Assembly (NCBI GenBank): GCA_905221085.1
Contig: CAJNBT010000001.1
Span: forward strand, 124,001 to 188,000
Length of the DNA stretch: 64,000 bases
From: a bacterium
GTDB taxonomy: Bacteria; Bacillota; Bacilli; Lactobacillales; Streptococcaceae
Direction of reading: 5' to 3'
The notes beneath the pieces were generated by a model. It was not told the origin of the DNA. It made no database searches and saw nothing but the letters and a program-made list of their open reading frames with translations. This document shows, piece by piece, positions 3,083-41,845 of the stretch (the first letter of the stretch is position 1; every line of letters starts with the position of its first letter). The position numbers were made by a program, and so were the translations under genes.

Positions 3083-3225
3083 AAAAATCCCCAGTCGCTA
3101 GACTAGGGACTAAGAGGCATCTTCATGTGATGAGCAGGTTCACACAACTCATCAAGGTCCGCTCCTGCGTTATGACCTCCTTATGCTCAATAGTAGCCCG
3201 AAGACTACCTATCGACTCATCGCGT
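3083..3225 (-). ncRNA. asd RNA (small RNA upstream of asd)
   Basis: This is a complete small transcription unit on the minus strand. It has TTGACA (3254-3259), a 17-bp spacer, TAATAT (3231-3236), about 140 nt of structured sequence, and a terminator made of an 8-bp hairpin (3089-3108, loop TAGC) followed by TTTTTA. Position, size and the built-in terminator match the asd RNA motif known from lactic acid bacteria, which was seen as a separate RNA of about 170 nt in S. pyogenes. Its function is not established. The hairpin ends about 100 nt before the asd ATG. Confidence 0.8.
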
Positions 3226-3534: not shown

Positions 3535-4044
3535 CTATTTGCTTAAATCAATTCGACGACCAATTTTACCAATGATAATCGCTCCAATAATCAATGAGGC
3601 AAATTCACCAATTCCTGTTGTGAACCAAGTAAGGAAGAATGGTAATTGCGCTACGATATTCAACTCGGCAGCAATGGTAAACATGGAAATTGAAAAGAGG
3701 ATTGAAAAGAAGAAATGATCTTTTCGAATCAATCCATTAAAGAGGTAATCCTTGCTATATTTTGCAAAAAGCCAAACACCTAGACTGAGGAATACCAAGG
3801 TTGAACCACCACCAACAAAGACATCTAGCAGTCCGAAGCTAAAGAAATTAGCAATCATACAACCGATGGTAACTCCGATGATGTACTTAGGATTGTAAAA
3901 AGCCATAAAGTTCATCATTTCTGAAATACGAAACTGATAAGCGCCATAGCTAATGGCATTTAGGGGCGGTGTAACAGTCAAAACGACATAGATAGCAGCA
4001 ACGATTGCAATATCTGCAACATCACGAATAGTTAATTTTTTCAT
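3535..4044 (-). CDS. queT: Queuosine-precursor ECF transporter S component QueT
   Basis: QueT is the substrate-binding membrane subunit of an energy-coupling-factor transporter for queuosine precursors (preQ1/preQ0). The 169-aa protein is very hydrophobic, with about five or six membrane segments. It carries the family-typical N-terminus (IRDVADIAIVAAIYVVLT) and an ISYGAYQFRISE motif. The start is set at 4044 rather than 4116. The upstream codons lie inside the preQ1-II riboswitch, and AAAGGAG precedes the ATG at 4044. No ECF ATPase or T component is nearby, so it presumably shares the housekeeping ECF module. Confidence 0.9.
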   Translation of the reverse strand: MKKLTIRDVADIAIVAAIYVVLTVTPPLNAISYGAYQFRISEMMNFMAFYNPKYIIGVTIGCMIANFFSFGLLDVFVGGGSTLVFLSLGVWLFAKYSKDYLFNGLIRKDHFFFSILFSISMFTIAAELNIVAQLPFFLTWFTTGIGEFASLIIGAIIIGKIGRRIDLSK

Positions 4045-4049
4045 CTTTT

Positions 4050-4105
4050 CTCCTTTGGCGGTTTCCCGCGTATAATATGCTTGGTGAAAGAAGCTAAGCA
4101 CCAAG
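4050..4105 (-). promoter_or_regulatory. preQ1-II riboswitch controlling queT
   Basis: The leader between a TATACT -10 box and the queT ATG contains a P2 helix (CTTGGTG / CACCAAG), an AT-rich linker, GCGGGAAACCGC and CCAAAGGAG. This is the order of the preQ1-II (COG4708) class found in Streptococcaceae. The Shine-Dalgarno AAAGGAG (4050-4056) is inside the 3' pseudoknot region. That fits translational repression of queT when preQ1 is bound. Confidence 0.93.
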
Positions 4106-4166
4106 GGTTGATTCATTCAACCTTACCAGTATAGCACAATAACTTGCTTTATGCTATACTAAAAGC

Positions 4167-30165: not shown

Positions 30166-30274
30166 AAAAAGCACTTAGATTTCTCTAGGTGCTGGAATAG
30201 GCGGGACGGGAATTCCCCGCTTTTCAGATACCCCAAGGGTGCGTAGTTCCCGATATTTCTCTACTTCTATTCTT
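30166..30274 (-). ncRNA. Candidate pseudoknotted small RNA beside attL
   Basis: A complete minus-strand unit. TTGAAA (30304-30309), 16 bp and TATAAT (30282-30287) form the promoter. The terminator is AGCACCTAGA / TCTAAGTGCT with T5 (30166-30193). Inside, GCGGG (30216-30220) pairs with CCCGC (30201-30205). The loop sequence TTCCCG (30207-30212) is complementary to upstream CGGGAA (30247-30252), an H-type pseudoknot. A small ACCC/GGGT hairpin (30230-30240) lies between. No reading frame of note. Function unknown. Confidence 0.65.
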
Positions 30275-37535: not shown

Positions 37536-37558
37536 CATCTATGAAAGGTGTGATAAAC

Positions 37559-38149
37559 ATGAATAGACTGAAAGAATTAAGAAAACAAAAAGGACTAACC
37601 CAACAGGAATTAGCTGATGAAATATCTGTATCAAAAATCACCATCTTAAGATGGGAGAATGAAGAACGTCAAATAAAAACAGAAAAAGCCCAGCAACTAG
37701 CTGACTACTTCGGGGTAAGCGTTGGGTATCTGTTGGGATTTAGTAACGATGTAGAAAAACACCCTTTTGAATGGGATGAAATTTCGGAAATTTCTAAACC
37801 ATATTTGGTAAAAGAACTAAAAAAACGGAGGCAAGAAAGAAGAGAAGAACTAAGAGTTTTAAGAGATTTTGCAAAAAATAATGATTTAACTGAAAATATC
37901 AATAATGTAACTCAAAAATTAGGAGATATTGTAATACCTTATCTTGATTTAAATGCGCAATTAAAAGCGAAACAAAAGTTCTCAGATAGTGAGAAGAAAG
38001 CATTGGGATACCTTGAAAATCAAGTTTTAAACTTAAACTCAGCATTTTCTCAAACACTCTTGACAATTTTTAAAGGTACGCAATCTATAGATGAGTATAA
38101 AAATATGCAAAATGTATTGGATTTCCTTAGAGAATCTGAAGGCAAATAA
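37559..38149 (+). CDS. XRE family repressor of the island, 196 aa
   Basis: N-terminal Cro/CI helix-turn-helix (LKELRKQKGLTQQELADEIS ... ILRWENEERQ, residues 3-60) followed by a charged helical C-terminal part, with no LexA-type peptidase motif. The lack of a self-cleavage domain fits a PICI master repressor relieved by a phage protein rather than by RecA. The start is set at 37559 (AAAGGTG upstream), not 37541. Confidence 0.88.
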   Translation: MNRLKELRKQKGLTQQELADEISVSKITILRWENEERQIKTEKAQQLADYFGVSVGYLLGFSNDVEKHPFEWDEISEISKPYLVKELKKRRQERREELRVLRDFAKNNDLTENINNVTQKLGDIVIPYLDLNAQLKAKQKFSDSEKKALGYLENQVLNLNSAFSQTLLTIFKGTQSIDEYKNMQNVLDFLRESEGK

Positions 38150-38218: not shown

Positions 38219-38983
38219 ATGACAATACAAAACAAACAGATTTTAAAGGCTTTAAAAAACTTTGAAAAAGTTCATTCTACATTTCCAAAAAATAACAAAT
38301 TCCGCTTTTTGCCTAATTGGCTAGAAAAAGAATCTAATCTATTCTTATCAGAAACACAAAATACTAGCAAGAGTTACAATGTTCTAAAGCGTGGTTCTTT
38401 AATCTTTGTAGATTTTGGAATTAACATCGGATCTGAATTATCAAATAGACATTGGGCTGTAGTCTTAAATAAAAATGATTCCCCAAAATCCAGAAATTTG
38501 ACTGTACTTCCAATTAGTTCAAAAGAGAAAAAGTTTTCCGTTAAGATTGATGAAGTTATTGAAAGTAAATCAACCCCTTTTCTAATCTCTGTTTTCGCAA
38601 AACTTGATTTTGACTATTTTTCAATAATTCACTATATATTGACTGAGATAACCCCTTTTGATTTAGGGGAATCCGAAGATAGATATAAAGAGTTATTAGA
38701 GGAATACAAAGATTTCTACAACCCTGAAAAAGCCAAAGAAATGTTTAACGATGGTACAGGTATGGAAGTTTTATCAGCTGCAATAAAAAAATTAAAAAAT
38801 CTATTTAATCATTATGAAAAATTCAACAAAGTTTCCTACGCAAAATGTGACCAAATAAGAACAATAAGTAAAGATAGAATCATCTATTTAAACGATTTAG
38901 ATCCTTGTGGAAAAATCAGGGTTAGTAATGAAACTTTAGATAGAATTGACGAAAAATTAAAAGAATTGTACTTAAAAGATTGA
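38219..38983 (+). CDS. PemK/MazF-like protein with a long insertion, 254 aa
   Basis: Residues about 60-130 carry a PemK/MazF-like barrel start (LKRGSLIFVDFG ... GSELSNRHWAVVLNKND ... LTVLPISSKEK). The typical final strand (KCDQIRTISKDRIIY) comes only after an insertion of about 80 residues. Such proteins cleave mRNA or, in phage-related forms, are predicted regulators. No separate antitoxin gene is adjacent; the repressor upstream is 69 nt away. Its stop codon overlaps the -35 box of the next small RNA. Confidence 0.75.
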   Translation: MTIQNKQILKALKNFEKVHSTFPKNNKFRFLPNWLEKESNLFLSETQNTSKSYNVLKRGSLIFVDFGINIGSELSNRHWAVVLNKNDSPKSRNLTVLPISSKEKKFSVKIDEVIESKSTPFLISVFAKLDFDYFSIIHYILTEITPFDLGESEDRYKELLEEYKDFYNPEKAKEMFNDGTGMEVLSAAIKKLKNLFNHYEKFNKVSYAKCDQIRTISKDRIIYLNDLDPCGKIRVSNETLDRIDEKLKELYLKD

Positions 38984-39014
38984 CAGTAATAAAAGTTTAC
39001 TCTATAATTAAGTT

Positions 39015-39095
39015 ACTTAGAGGTTTACCCTCATATTTTTAAACTTTGAGCCTTTGCGCTCCAGGGAAGTAGCTTAATTGTTACTTCCCTTTTTT
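39015..39095 (+). ncRNA. Candidate small RNA 1 upstream of the Abi gene
   Basis: Consensus promoter TTGACA (38980-38985), 17 bp, TATAAT (39003-39008). The transcript would hold a hairpin AGGTTTA/TAAACTT, a GAGC/GCTC hairpin, and a terminator AGGGAAGTA/TACTTCCCT (39063-39090) with T6. CCC in the first loop can meet GGG of the terminator stem. About 80 nt, no reading frame. Unknown; its 5' end (GTTACTTAGAG) resembles that of the next RNA (GGTACTTAAGAG). Confidence 0.7.
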
Positions 39096-39331
39096 GAGTT
39101 GTAAATGCTTGAAATAAACAAAACTCTCCATATTCACCAATAGCACCCCTCTATCCATGGTCTAAAGTGCAAAAACAGGGGAAATTGAAGAATAGAAAGC
39201 CGATTTGACAGACTAAAACTAATATCTAAAAGATATAATTCATTAACTTTAAACAAAAAGAAGCGAAAGAAAAATCAATTATTTTGAACAAAAGTGTTGA
39301 CTAACATTTAAAATTATCATACAATGAAGGT

Positions 39332-39417
39332 ACTTAAGAGAATAGCGCCCGATAATTCTCAGTGAAACGGGATAGCGAAAAAAGCGCCTTCTATGTATTT
39401 AGGAGGTGCCTTTTTTT
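39332..39417 (+). ncRNA. abiF-type pseudoknot RNA directly upstream of the Abi gene
   Basis: Promoter TTGACT (39297-39302), 17 bp, TACAAT (39320-39325). The hairpin GAGAAT/ATTCTC has a loop whose CCCG can pair with CGGG downstream (H-type pseudoknot). Then an A-rich linker and a 9-bp terminator GCGCCTTCT/AGGAGGTGC (39384-39409) with T7. The 3' arm of the terminator is the Shine-Dalgarno of the Abi gene and the T run ends in its TTG start. Position and structure suggest the abiF RNA motif described next to abiF genes; I cannot confirm the family match. Confidence 0.75.
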
Positions 39418-40372
39418 GTCCAAACCATTCAAGACTATACAAGAACAAATAGAGTTATTACATAAACGGGGGCTTGTAATATCTGACTATTCCAAAACAA
39501 AAAAGTACCTACTAACAAATAACTACTACAGTATTATCAATGGTTACAGTAAATATTTTACTGATCAACACAATGATTATATACAAGGTGCTAATTTCTC
39601 GGAAATTACTTATACATACTTTTATGATAAGGAAATCAAATACACCTTCCTAAAAGCTATCTTAGAAGCTGAGAAACACATAAAATCTATATTAGCTTAT
39701 GTTTTTTCCGAGGCTTACCCTACTACTCCTTATTTTTACTTAGATTACCAAAACTACGACTACAAGAAAAACAAGAGAACTGTCCCTTTTGTGATTCGTC
39801 AAATCGTAAACATCATTGATAAACATAAATCAAGCCGAAAAAGCAATAGCATACAACACTATTTCAATAAACATGATGACGTCCCTTTCTGGGTAATCGT
39901 GGATTACTTGACTTTTGGAGATATACTCGCAATATTGAAGAGTTTGCCACTCTCCCTACAAGATAGAATTGCAAAGAAGTCTTACAGTTTTATTAGTGAA
40001 CACTGCACTATTAAGAAAACTTTTACTAGGGATATGCTAATTTCCTTTGTTGAAAACCTAGCAGAAACTAGAAATGTTTGCGCTCACGATAACCGCTTAT
40101 ATGGTTTCAAGTGTAGAAATAGCTTGAAATATTATCCTGATTTACACGACAAACACAATATAAAGAATACAGACGCAAAAAGTAGTCCTTACCATACCAT
40201 GATTGCATTACAATGTTTCTTAAGCGCTAATGAGTATGCTAAACTACATAATACGCTCCTATCACGATTTAAAGACTTCTCTAAACATTTGCATACACTC
40301 TCTATTGATTTCTTTTTAAACGAACTGGGCTTTCCTCCTAATTGGCAACAATCAAATAAACTCGTTCATTAA
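39416..40372 (+). CDS. Abi family (AbiD/F, Abi_2) protein with HEPN motif, TTG start
   Basis: A 318-aa protein of the Abi_2 family, linked to abortive phage infection. The N-terminal KPFKTIQEQIELLHKRGL and YYSIINGYSKYF blocks are typical. Residues 219-224 (RNVCAH) followed by DNRLY form the R-x4-H HEPN ribonuclease motif. The start is placed at TTG 39416, with AGGAGGTG 7 nt upstream; the longer GTG frame would lie inside the RNA. Because the ribosome-binding site is inside the terminator hairpin of the RNA, read-through transcripts would be poorly translated. Confidence 0.85.
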   Translation: MSKPFKTIQEQIELLHKRGLVISDYSKTKKYLLTNNYYSIINGYSKYFTDQHNDYIQGANFSEITYTYFYDKEIKYTFLKAILEAEKHIKSILAYVFSEAYPTTPYFYLDYQNYDYKKNKRTVPFVIRQIVNIIDKHKSSRKSNSIQHYFNKHDDVPFWVIVDYLTFGDILAILKSLPLSLQDRIAKKSYSFISEHCTIKKTFTRDMLISFVENLAETRNVCAHDNRLYGFKCRNSLKYYPDLHDKHNIKNTDAKSSPYHTMIALQCFLSANEYAKLHNTLLSRFKDFSKHLHTLSIDFFLNELGFPPNWQQSNKLVH

Positions 40373-40534: not shown

Positions 40535-41698
40535 ATGAATATTACAGAATACAAAAAGAAAAACGGAACTATCGTATACCGAGCAAGCGTGTATCTTGGA
40601 GTTGATAAACTTACAGGGAAAAAGGCTAGAACCACGGTCACGGCCAATACTAAAAAGGGGATTAAAATCAAAGCAAGAGAGGCTGTCAGTGCTTTTGCTT
40701 CAAACGGATATACAGTTAAAGATAAACCAACAATCACAACATATGAAGAACTGGTAAAAGTTTGGTGGGATAGTTACAAGAATACAGTTAAACCCAATAC
40801 TCGCCAGTCTATGGATGGATTGGTTAGAGTGCATTTATTGCCCGTATTTGGCGATTATAAGCTAGACAAACTAACTACGCCTATTCTTCAACAGCAAGTA
40901 AATAAGTGGGCTGACAAGGCCAATAAGGGCGAAAAAGGGGCGTTTGCTAACTACTCCTTACTCCACAACATGAATAAGCGTATTTTGAAATATGGCGTAG
41001 CTATTCAGGTAATACAATACAATCCAGCTAACGATGTCATCGTTCCACGCAAACAGCAAAAAGAAAAGTCTACTGTAAAATACTTGGACAACAAAGAATT
41101 AAAACAGTTTCTGAATTATTTAGATACTCTGGATCAATCAAATTATGAAAACCTATTTGATGTTGTCCTGTATAAAACTTTATTGGCCACTGGTTGCCGT
41201 ATTAGTGAGGCTCTGGCTCTTGAATGGTCTGATATTGACCTAGAAAACGGTGTTATCAGTATCAATAAAACACTAAACCTCTATCAAGAAATAAATTCGC
41301 CTAAATCAAGCGCTGGTTATCGTGATATACCAATAGACAATGCCACCCTACTTTTACTTAAACAATACAAGAATCGTCAACAAATTCAGTCTTGGAAATT
41401 AGGCCGAACTGAAACAGTTGTATTCTCAGTATTTACAGAAAAATATGCTTATGCTTGCAACTTACGCAAACGCCTAAATAAGCATTTTGAGAATGCTGGT
41501 GTAACGAATGTATCATTCCACGGTTTCCGCCATACACATACCACTATGATGTTATACGCTCAGACTAGCCCTAAAGATGTCCAATACAGATTGGGACACT
41601 CTAACTTATTAGTGACTGAAAATGTTTACTGGCATACAAACCAAGAAAACGCAAAAAAAGCTGTCTCAAATTATGAAACAGCCATCAATAATTTATAA
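40535..41698 (+). CDS. int: Tyrosine-type site-specific integrase of the island
   Basis: A 387-aa phage-type integrase. The N-terminal arm-binding domain (YKKKNGTIVYRASVYLGVD) is followed by a SAM-like core-binding domain (about 70-170) and the catalytic domain with Arg222 (TGCRISEALAL), His329/Arg332 (HGFRHTHTT), His355 (RLGHSN) and nucleophile Tyr365 (TENVYWHTN). AAAAGGAG precedes the ATG. It lies 150 bp from attR in eno, the usual place for the enzyme that integrates at that site. Confidence 0.95.
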   Translation: MNITEYKKKNGTIVYRASVYLGVDKLTGKKARTTVTANTKKGIKIKAREAVSAFASNGYTVKDKPTITTYEELVKVWWDSYKNTVKPNTRQSMDGLVRVHLLPVFGDYKLDKLTTPILQQQVNKWADKANKGEKGAFANYSLLHNMNKRILKYGVAIQVIQYNPANDVIVPRKQQKEKSTVKYLDNKELKQFLNYLDTLDQSNYENLFDVVLYKTLLATGCRISEALALEWSDIDLENGVISINKTLNLYQEINSPKSSAGYRDIPIDNATLLLLKQYKNRQQIQSWKLGRTETVVFSVFTEKYAYACNLRKRLNKHFENAGVTNVSFHGFRHTHTTMMLYAQTSPKDVQYRLGHSNLLVTENVYWHTNQENAKKAVSNYETAINNL

Positions 41699-41780
41699 AG
41701 GGTGTCACGATTAGTGACTACCCTCTTACTATACTTAAAATTACTATCGGGTAACTAAAAGGGTAGTAAAACAAGAAAAA

Positions 41781-41808
41781 GCACTAAGGGAAAGCGCCCC
41801 AAAGTGCT
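41781..41808. terminator. Bidirectional terminator int / eno, carried by the island
   Basis: GCACTaaGGG / CCCCaaAGTGC inverted repeat with T-rich flank on both sides (TTTTTC on the minus strand). It lies inside the island, 38 bp beyond the attR repeat, and serves both int and eno. Confidence 0.8.
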
Positions 41809-41845
41809 TATTTCAAAGGCTTTATAGCCCCTCATCTCATAAAGA

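Follow-up and report, generated by a model that had tools for sequence, protein, structure and literature searches.

In the window, by which we mean the whole 64,000-nucleotide stretch of DNA analysed here, an element of prophage-like or satellite type in a mitis-group streptococcus carries a unit of a small RNA and an Abi gene. This is probably an RNA-controlled toxin unit of the AbiD/AbiF (Abi_2 HEPN) type, whose leader would combine the roles of antitoxin RNA, terminator and translational lock. The parts of the unit, the family of its protein and an overlap of terminator and start signal conserved among relatives emerge from the sequence and from comparison with other loci. The strongest pattern, absent from the first-pass annotation of this stretch, is that the promoter of the small RNA is complementary to the 5′ arm and loop of its own terminator.

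At the level of sequence signals, a small RNA with its own promoter and terminator lies directly before the toxin gene. A sigma-A type promoter (39297..39325, forward strand) matching 10 of 12 consensus bases, with TTGACT at 39297-39302, a 17 bp spacer and TACAAT at 39320-39325, precedes a predicted RNA of about 80-87 nt (39332..39418, forward strand; predicted start at about 39332), in agreement with the earlier proposal. The intrinsic terminator (39384..39417, forward strand) consists of a hairpin, GCGCCTTCTA-TGTATT-TAGGAGGTGC (39384-39409), followed by a T7 run (39411-39417); it had been described as a 9-bp stem, of which the terminator itself stands and the pair count does not, as 10 pairs are formed when G-U is counted. 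The start signal AGGAGG (39401-39406) sits inside the 3′ arm of this terminator, and the T run provides the TT of the TTG start codon (39416-39418) of the Abi frame, which ends at 40372; both points had been claimed before and were read again. Likewise, the idea that a single element stops the RNA and masks the start signal is supported. The hairpin is far more stable than shuffled sequence: for 39380-39420 none of 200 dinucleotide shuffles was as stable (z −5.8), and the same holds for the whole RNA (39332-39420; z −3.6, 0/200). A longer frame could begin at GTG 39362 inside the RNA, with no start signal seen before this GTG. However, position 39416 is the likely start because the proteins of relatives mostly align from residue 3 and their start codons take the equivalent place behind the T run.

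The Abi gene (39416..40372, forward strand) encodes a protein of 318 aa, which matches PF07751 (Abi_2) with E 4.6e-36 and 125.3 bits (cut-off 25.6), the PADLOC AbiD model with E 1.3e-50 and PDB 8vz6 with E 2.2e-12, the last being PbAbiF together with its AbiFr RNA (PMC12737573, available in part). The HEPN motif RNxxxH is present as RNVCAH at codons 219-224 (R219, H224; 40070-40087), so that both the Abi_2 assignment and the R-x4-H motif suggested earlier hold. Abi_2 is the sole Pfam match at E ≤ 0.001, a ToxN domain being absent, and no NCBIfam model matched the protein at the same threshold. Among Streptococcus genomes, 40 of 247 contain relatives (E ≤ 1e-10); wider searches gave 18/221 and 9/105 genomes for two families (E ≤ 1e-15) and, at E ≤ 1e-25, 31 of 395 genomes at order level and 6 of 398 at phylum level. 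Genome contigs searched with the window protein alone gave 2 loci only. ToxN loci were present in 7 of 198 genomes.

Since the window protein is related to PbAbiF, the kind of system, an RNA-controlled AbiF resembling type III toxin-antitoxin pairs, is already published, and the likeness to such pairs noted at first reading, a HEPN Abi protein with an RNA upstream, is borne out. PbAbiF-AbiFr shares the protein family and the HEPN active site (R210/H215 there), and the accessible parts of PMC12737573 and PMC12373285 mention no terminator/start overlap for it. In Clostridioides difficile phi027, AbiF-Cd is described as a toxic protein which is bound and neutralised by the RNA RCd22, and deletion of RCd22 including the terminator raised abiF 17-fold (accessible parts of PMC12373285). 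As in the window, an Abi_2 HEPN toxin is encoded there in a prophage, the small RNA is made from one sigma-A promoter, the terminator precedes the gene and read-through is rare; in contrast, the ribosome-binding site AGGTGA belongs to an ATG start and the RNA has the terminator at its 3′ end, ahead of the gene, whereas in the window the ribosome-binding site is inside the terminator and the start is TTG. Furthermore, RCd22 contains two Rfam abiF motifs and the window RNA none (same partial source). ToxIN-type type III systems share the order of RNA antitoxin, terminator and toxin gene but have another toxin family, the window protein having no ToxN match, and their antitoxin consists of tandem repeats (PMC12373285, as far as accessible). 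AbiD1 of Lactococcus lactis pIL105 resembles the window unit in its short terminated RNA (50 bases, ending at the terminator), rare read-through, hidden ribosome-binding site and low toxin synthesis, the site being opened by phage Orf1; unlike in the window, it is a second hairpin after the terminator that hides the ribosome-binding site, and the start is ATG (accessible parts of PMC2661086). As a counterpoint to a terminator acting as lock, the same text reports for AbiD1, with its separate hairpin, that removal of the terminator did not raise translation.

In the reading we prefer, transcription from the unit's own promoter would mostly yield a short RNA ending at the terminator, and this RNA, by analogy with the AbiF systems studied, probably binds and restrains the toxin. 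In the rare transcripts that read through, the start signal would stay locked in the same hairpin ahead of a weak TTG start; toxin would thus be made rarely, because read-through is rare, the start signal is locked and TTG is weak. We infer that the protein is toxic, that the RNA binds it and that read-through or a phage signal would release the toxin. How AbiF-type toxins are kept off and set off is the matter at stake, and the overlap and the complementarity provide directly testable rules for it; AbiF has also been proposed as the ancestor of Cas13 (PMC12737573 and PMC12373285, both available in part).

To place the overlap among relatives, 107 loci, near-copies included, were scored for the position of the start signal, which was found in the 3′ arm of the terminator in 34, after the terminator in 62 and was unclear or unscorable in 11. 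A protein tree was computed from 66 of the 107 loci, with near-copies and short or unclear rows left out and with L092, scored as overlap by the script, moved by hand to the separate class beforehand. On this tree the overlap needs two changes (2-3 in bootstrap replicates) and marks clade A of 18 proteins, which includes the window and spans several families (support 96/99), and clade B of 5 proteins (support 92/84); it is therefore no accident. The overlap in clade B apparently has an independent origin, as judged from the tree, so that a terminator doubling as translational lock would have been kept across one clade and, apparently, evolved twice. The leader RNA of clade B (L098, L112, L114, L116, L134) looks different. 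Start codons at the 33 overlap loci, counted after L092 was moved and with near-copies included, were mostly weak ones, namely 25 TTG, 3 GTG and 2 ATT next to 3 ATG, whereas 50 of the 62 separate loci, near-copies again included, start with ATG. L034 and L053 have no ATG, GTG or TTG at the expected place, and ATT right after the T run is their apparent start; the Abi frame of L053 is broken further on.

The first-pass annotation had pointed to the abiF RNA motif and to a covariance-model search for it. The window RNA did not match Rfam RF03085 (abiF) at E ≤ 10, and no match was obtained in 18 homologous loci (E ≤ 1) or in 20 more at the gathering threshold. The model does find members elsewhere, in 11 of 249 genomes at E ≤ 0.001, 4 of them over the cut-off, and membership of the window RNA in this family was rejected. 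We compared the leaders of 22 members of the window's Abi clade, window included. The conserved fold, as deduced from the alignment, is a two-tier hairpin made up of the equivalent of CCCG/CGGG and an inner helix. For the outer helix, 15 of the 22 leaders were used (WIN, L005, L006, L017, L038, L069 and L087 were omitted, their stems being offset in the alignment or the leaders being superfluous for a clean one); in these 15, the window not among them, pairing reached 92.4% of 105 cells, and 22 cells were double-changed as against 7.5 after shuffling (0/500). The inner helix, usually closed by UACG, was paired in 95% of 60 cells, a value reached by 11 of 500 shuffles, and across all 22 leaders it beats shuffled loops with z 4.7. 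A covariance model built from the 15 relatives' leaders (model R1) did not match the window RNA at E ≤ 5 among 32 sources; of the nearest relatives it matched L006 (E 0.027), L017 (0.04) and L005 (0.47) weakly and L069 not at all. The proposed antitoxin role of the window RNA is drawn from its position and design and not from its sequence, as neither Rfam nor model R1 gave a match.

In the window itself the core hairpin (CCCG 39348-39351 with CGGG 39368-39371, inner TTC/GAA) is the best fold, and it may be a weak form of the two tiers: 0.44 of loop shuffles equal its inner UUC/GAA helix, and the 41-nt core alone (39340-39380) is not exceptional (z −0.38; 60 of 200 shuffles as stable, with pseudoknots not scored by the program). 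The pieces of the pseudoknot claimed at first reading are present, GAGAAT (39338-39343) and ATTCTC (39355-39360) forming 6 pairs. Its role as conserved fold is unsupported: across the 22 leaders this helix is better than with shuffled 5′ segments (z 3.8), but 1024 of 20000 swaps between loci were as good, 6 of the 22 leaders have at most 3 pairs, and the relatives share the two-tier hairpin instead. Covariation across homologues, which the first-pass annotation had called for, exists for the outer helix of the 15 relatives' leaders, while the pseudoknot helix hardly beats swaps. A pseudoknot in the window RNA is possible; since its ATTCTC strand shares bases with the inner helix, the RNA might also alternate between these two structures.

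The element in which the unit is embedded has the gene order HTH regulator (37541-38149), PemK/MazF-like gene (38219-38983; 254 aa, PF02452 E 2.7e-12), RNA-Abi unit and tyrosine integrase (40535..41698, forward strand; PF00589 E 7e-26), the last directly 3′ of the Abi gene. The order of a small gene or regulator, abi and integrase recurs in streptococcal satellite phages, e.g., Javan537, Javan651 and Javan754, and Streptococcus mitis BCC45 carries a copy with a 99% identical Abi protein and a near-identical leader. Relatives of the PemK/MazF-like protein occur in 102 staphylococcal and streptococcal phage records. Upstream of the Abi leader lies a second small RNA unit (38980..39098, forward strand) with a perfect promoter, TTGACA-17-TATAAT, and a strong terminator (39063-39090), an arm of which pairs with its own promoter at −14.1 kcal/mol over 13 pairs, one of them G-U (counted by eye). 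DNA similar to this unit was found in 8 phage records, and it is kept 5′ of the integrase in phage EJ-1 and in Javan433, Javan378 and Javan337. Elsewhere in the window, Rfam matches on the reverse strand were obtained for MarS sRNA (3083-3225), a preQ1-II riboswitch (4042-4138), skipping-rope RNA (30193-30274) and, beside the enolase gene, SpF01 sRNA (41767-41845).

The complementarity between promoter and terminator was first noticed by eye. In the window the segment ATACA-AT-GAAGG (39319..39330, forward strand) is complementary to CCTTC (39387-39391) and TGTAT (39394-39398) in the 5′ arm and loop of the terminator. As scored, segment and own arm form a duplex of −14.4 kcal/mol with a 2x2 internal loop; no pairing of this promoter with 50 other terminators, or of this terminator with 50 other promoters, was as strong. 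Against the bare arm the value is −12.4 kcal/mol, a level also reached by 26 of 5000 shuffles and by 9 of 794 stretches from the neighbourhood. The longest unbroken Watson-Crick run in the window is 5, which is chance level. Among relatives, the longest Watson-Crick run of each promoter with its own terminator was compared to that obtained when terminators were swapped among loci. For 51 two-part Abi leaders it measured 6.55 bases for own pairs and 4.60 for swapped ones, and 0 of 20000 permutations reached the own value. The same was seen in the first set (n=33; 6.85 versus 4.84, 0/20000) and in a later set (n=24; 5.67 versus 4.38, 0/20000), the 51 having been drawn from both sets. The first set included L053 with a misplaced promoter, which was excluded afterwards. 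The later set comprised 24 of 44 new loci (20 were dropped as near-copies, for lack of a detected terminator or for a late hit start); its sequences had been viewed before the test and were scored identically, and its single-hairpin loci L091, L100, L113, L117 and L118 were left out of the 51. Single-hairpin, abiF-like leaders gave a weak signal (z 2.7), with no run of at least 7 in 15. The complementarity is not universal, since runs of at least 7 occur in 26 of the 51 leaders and 25 fall below 7.

Several further properties characterise the match. It holds within the overlap class (n=19), within the separate class (n=28) and in a thinned set (n=16), and scanning of the upstream DNA in 20-base windows yielded a signal only around the −10 box to the start (best z 10). 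In the 30 loci with a run of at least 6, the segment stops no later than the predicted start base in 28 and overshoots it by one base in 2; in 20 of the 30 the pairing involves loop bases, for which the terminator itself offers no partner. In 35 loci the match of the promoter to the 5′ arm exceeds its likeness to the 3′ arm, in 6 the reverse holds and 10 are tied (p 2e-6). No such signal emerged from 138 other promoter-terminator pairs, taken from 400 kb of one Streptococcus (z −0.3; runs of at least 7 in 5 of 138), a control widened from 12 initial pairs by looser promoter and terminator limits that admit weaker promoters. Chance or composition as the source of the match was rejected on the swaps, the tests within classes, the thinned set and the control pairs. 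A literature search, which covered few subscription papers, found no report of promoter:terminator complementarity and none, in the AbiF family, of a terminator acting as lock on the ribosome-binding site.

What the complementarity does is a separate question. A doubtful but serious possibility is that the terminator senses the origin of transcripts: those started upstream would carry the promoter segment, block the terminator and free the start signal, whereas those started at the own promoter would stop. Pairing within upstream-started transcripts is favoured because the segment is absent from the unit's own transcript and yet adjoins the RNA, and the excess of own over swapped runs in all three sets, its persistence in both classes, the position of the segment relative to the RNA start and the preference for the 5′ arm all speak for this reading. 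Moreover, the nearest upstream open frame (the longest of at least 70 codons within 450 bases, for 50 of the 51 loci, L028 having too little upstream sequence) is co-directional in 37, in 28 of these with no terminator between, and the 37 pair better (6.97 versus 5.46, one-sided p 0.017, uncorrected for kinship). Other orientation tests were nevertheless not significant (energy, p 0.063; runs of at least 7 in 22 of 37 versus 4 of 13, p 0.11, uncorrected for kinship), and in the window the upstream terminator at 39063-39090 lies between. An excess of G-U as a sign of RNA pairing was not found, G-U and A-C being about equal near the helices (G-U 15 and A-C 13 at a distance, 7 and 12 beside the run). 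At equilibrium, only 2 of 51 full transcripts show the antiterminator above 0.3, and in L040 alone does it outcompete the terminator, so that an antiterminator winning at equilibrium was rejected; in 33 of 51 it forms (>0.3) only before the 3′ arm is made, falling from 0.51 to 0.00 in the window. As equilibrium folding opposes it, the antiterminator would need either to act while the RNA is being transcribed or to have a helper. Taken together with the preferred reading, this would make a hairpin with three jobs, which ends the antitoxin RNA, locks the toxin start and reads the origin of the transcript, the promoter being the key to its own terminator; we put this forward tentatively. If true, only transcripts started upstream, by read-through within the element or driven by a phage, would open the hairpin and make toxin, and the window would hold two origin-reading terminators in series. 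In IS10 and IS50, protection from outside transcription works through an outside-started transcript that folds differently at the start signal of the gene. Those elements silence outside transcripts, whereas the Abi leader of the window would let them through.

It is unlikely that the leader is a cis-acting lock only, without antitoxin function, on a toxin mRNA that a phage protein or cold would open, as for AbiD1 and Orf1. AbiD1 is indeed activated at translation by phage Orf1 and low temperature (accessible part of PMC2661086), and the window RNA matches no known antitoxin RNA; on the other hand, conservation with covariation among relatives extends beyond the terminator to the RNA core, neutralisation by RCd22 works in trans (PMC12373285, in the part accessible) and AbiFr restrains AbiF (PMC12737573, likewise). 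We consider it improbable that the match works at the DNA level, with the terminator arm of the free or nascent RNA pairing with the opened promoter and repressing it by feedback: the matched segment overlaps the melting part of the promoter in many loci, but the arm is itself part of a stable hairpin (in the overlap clade, about −13 to −22 kcal/mol) and in L025, L031, L095, L098 and L133 the segment lies wholly, or bar one base, upstream of the −10 box. Shared composition or common descent is a most improbable source of the complementarity, for although promoters and Shine-Dalgarno-bearing arms are compositionally biased, the loci are related and 25 of 51 have short runs, terminator swaps among the same loci keep composition, also within classes and in the thinned set, the control pairs lack the signal and the latter is confined to one stretch of upstream DNA.

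Leaders resembling those of the relatives also occur apart from Abi genes. Model R1 gave 5 matches in 178 genomes, 2 preceding Abi genes and 3 with no Abi gene in the 3 kb examined. Two pattern scans of viral contigs yielded 84 stretches, many of them near-copies (22 different cores, in a set that also contains genome loci), of which 67 are model R1 matches, their scores being favoured because the scan pattern includes the conserved loop. An Abi gene lies within 400 nt in 7 of the 84 and 6 are at a contig edge, whereas 71, each followed by over 700 nt of sequence, lack an Abi gene, 54 of them being model matches and 17 chance-like. Orphans with fully paired, differing stems are found in 12 records, among them the S. 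thermophilus phages 01205, Sfi21, SFi18, Sfi11, Sfi19 and CHPC919, that of Sfi21 (L251 2049-2121) just 3′ of the lysin gene. Phages of S. agalactiae carry an orphan form with a poorer outer stem, whose 211-base stretch is matched by 47 Streptococcus phage records, 24 of them over at least 80%. It is a guess that the phage orphan RNAs are candidate antitoxin decoys; if such copies disarm Abi toxins, they would be ready-made counter-defences. Stand-alone hairpins with outer helix, inner helix and UACG loop and no adjoining Abi gene were seen in phages and prophages, namely in L251, L242, L177, L226, L186, L163 and L252. Some orphans follow what by eye is a tRNA-like 3′ half, at which ARAGORN called no tRNA. 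In phage Javan5 (L252 438-1988), an orphan RNA and such a tRNA-like piece lie in a stretch of about 1.5 kb that precedes the HNH and portal genes and has no annotated gene.
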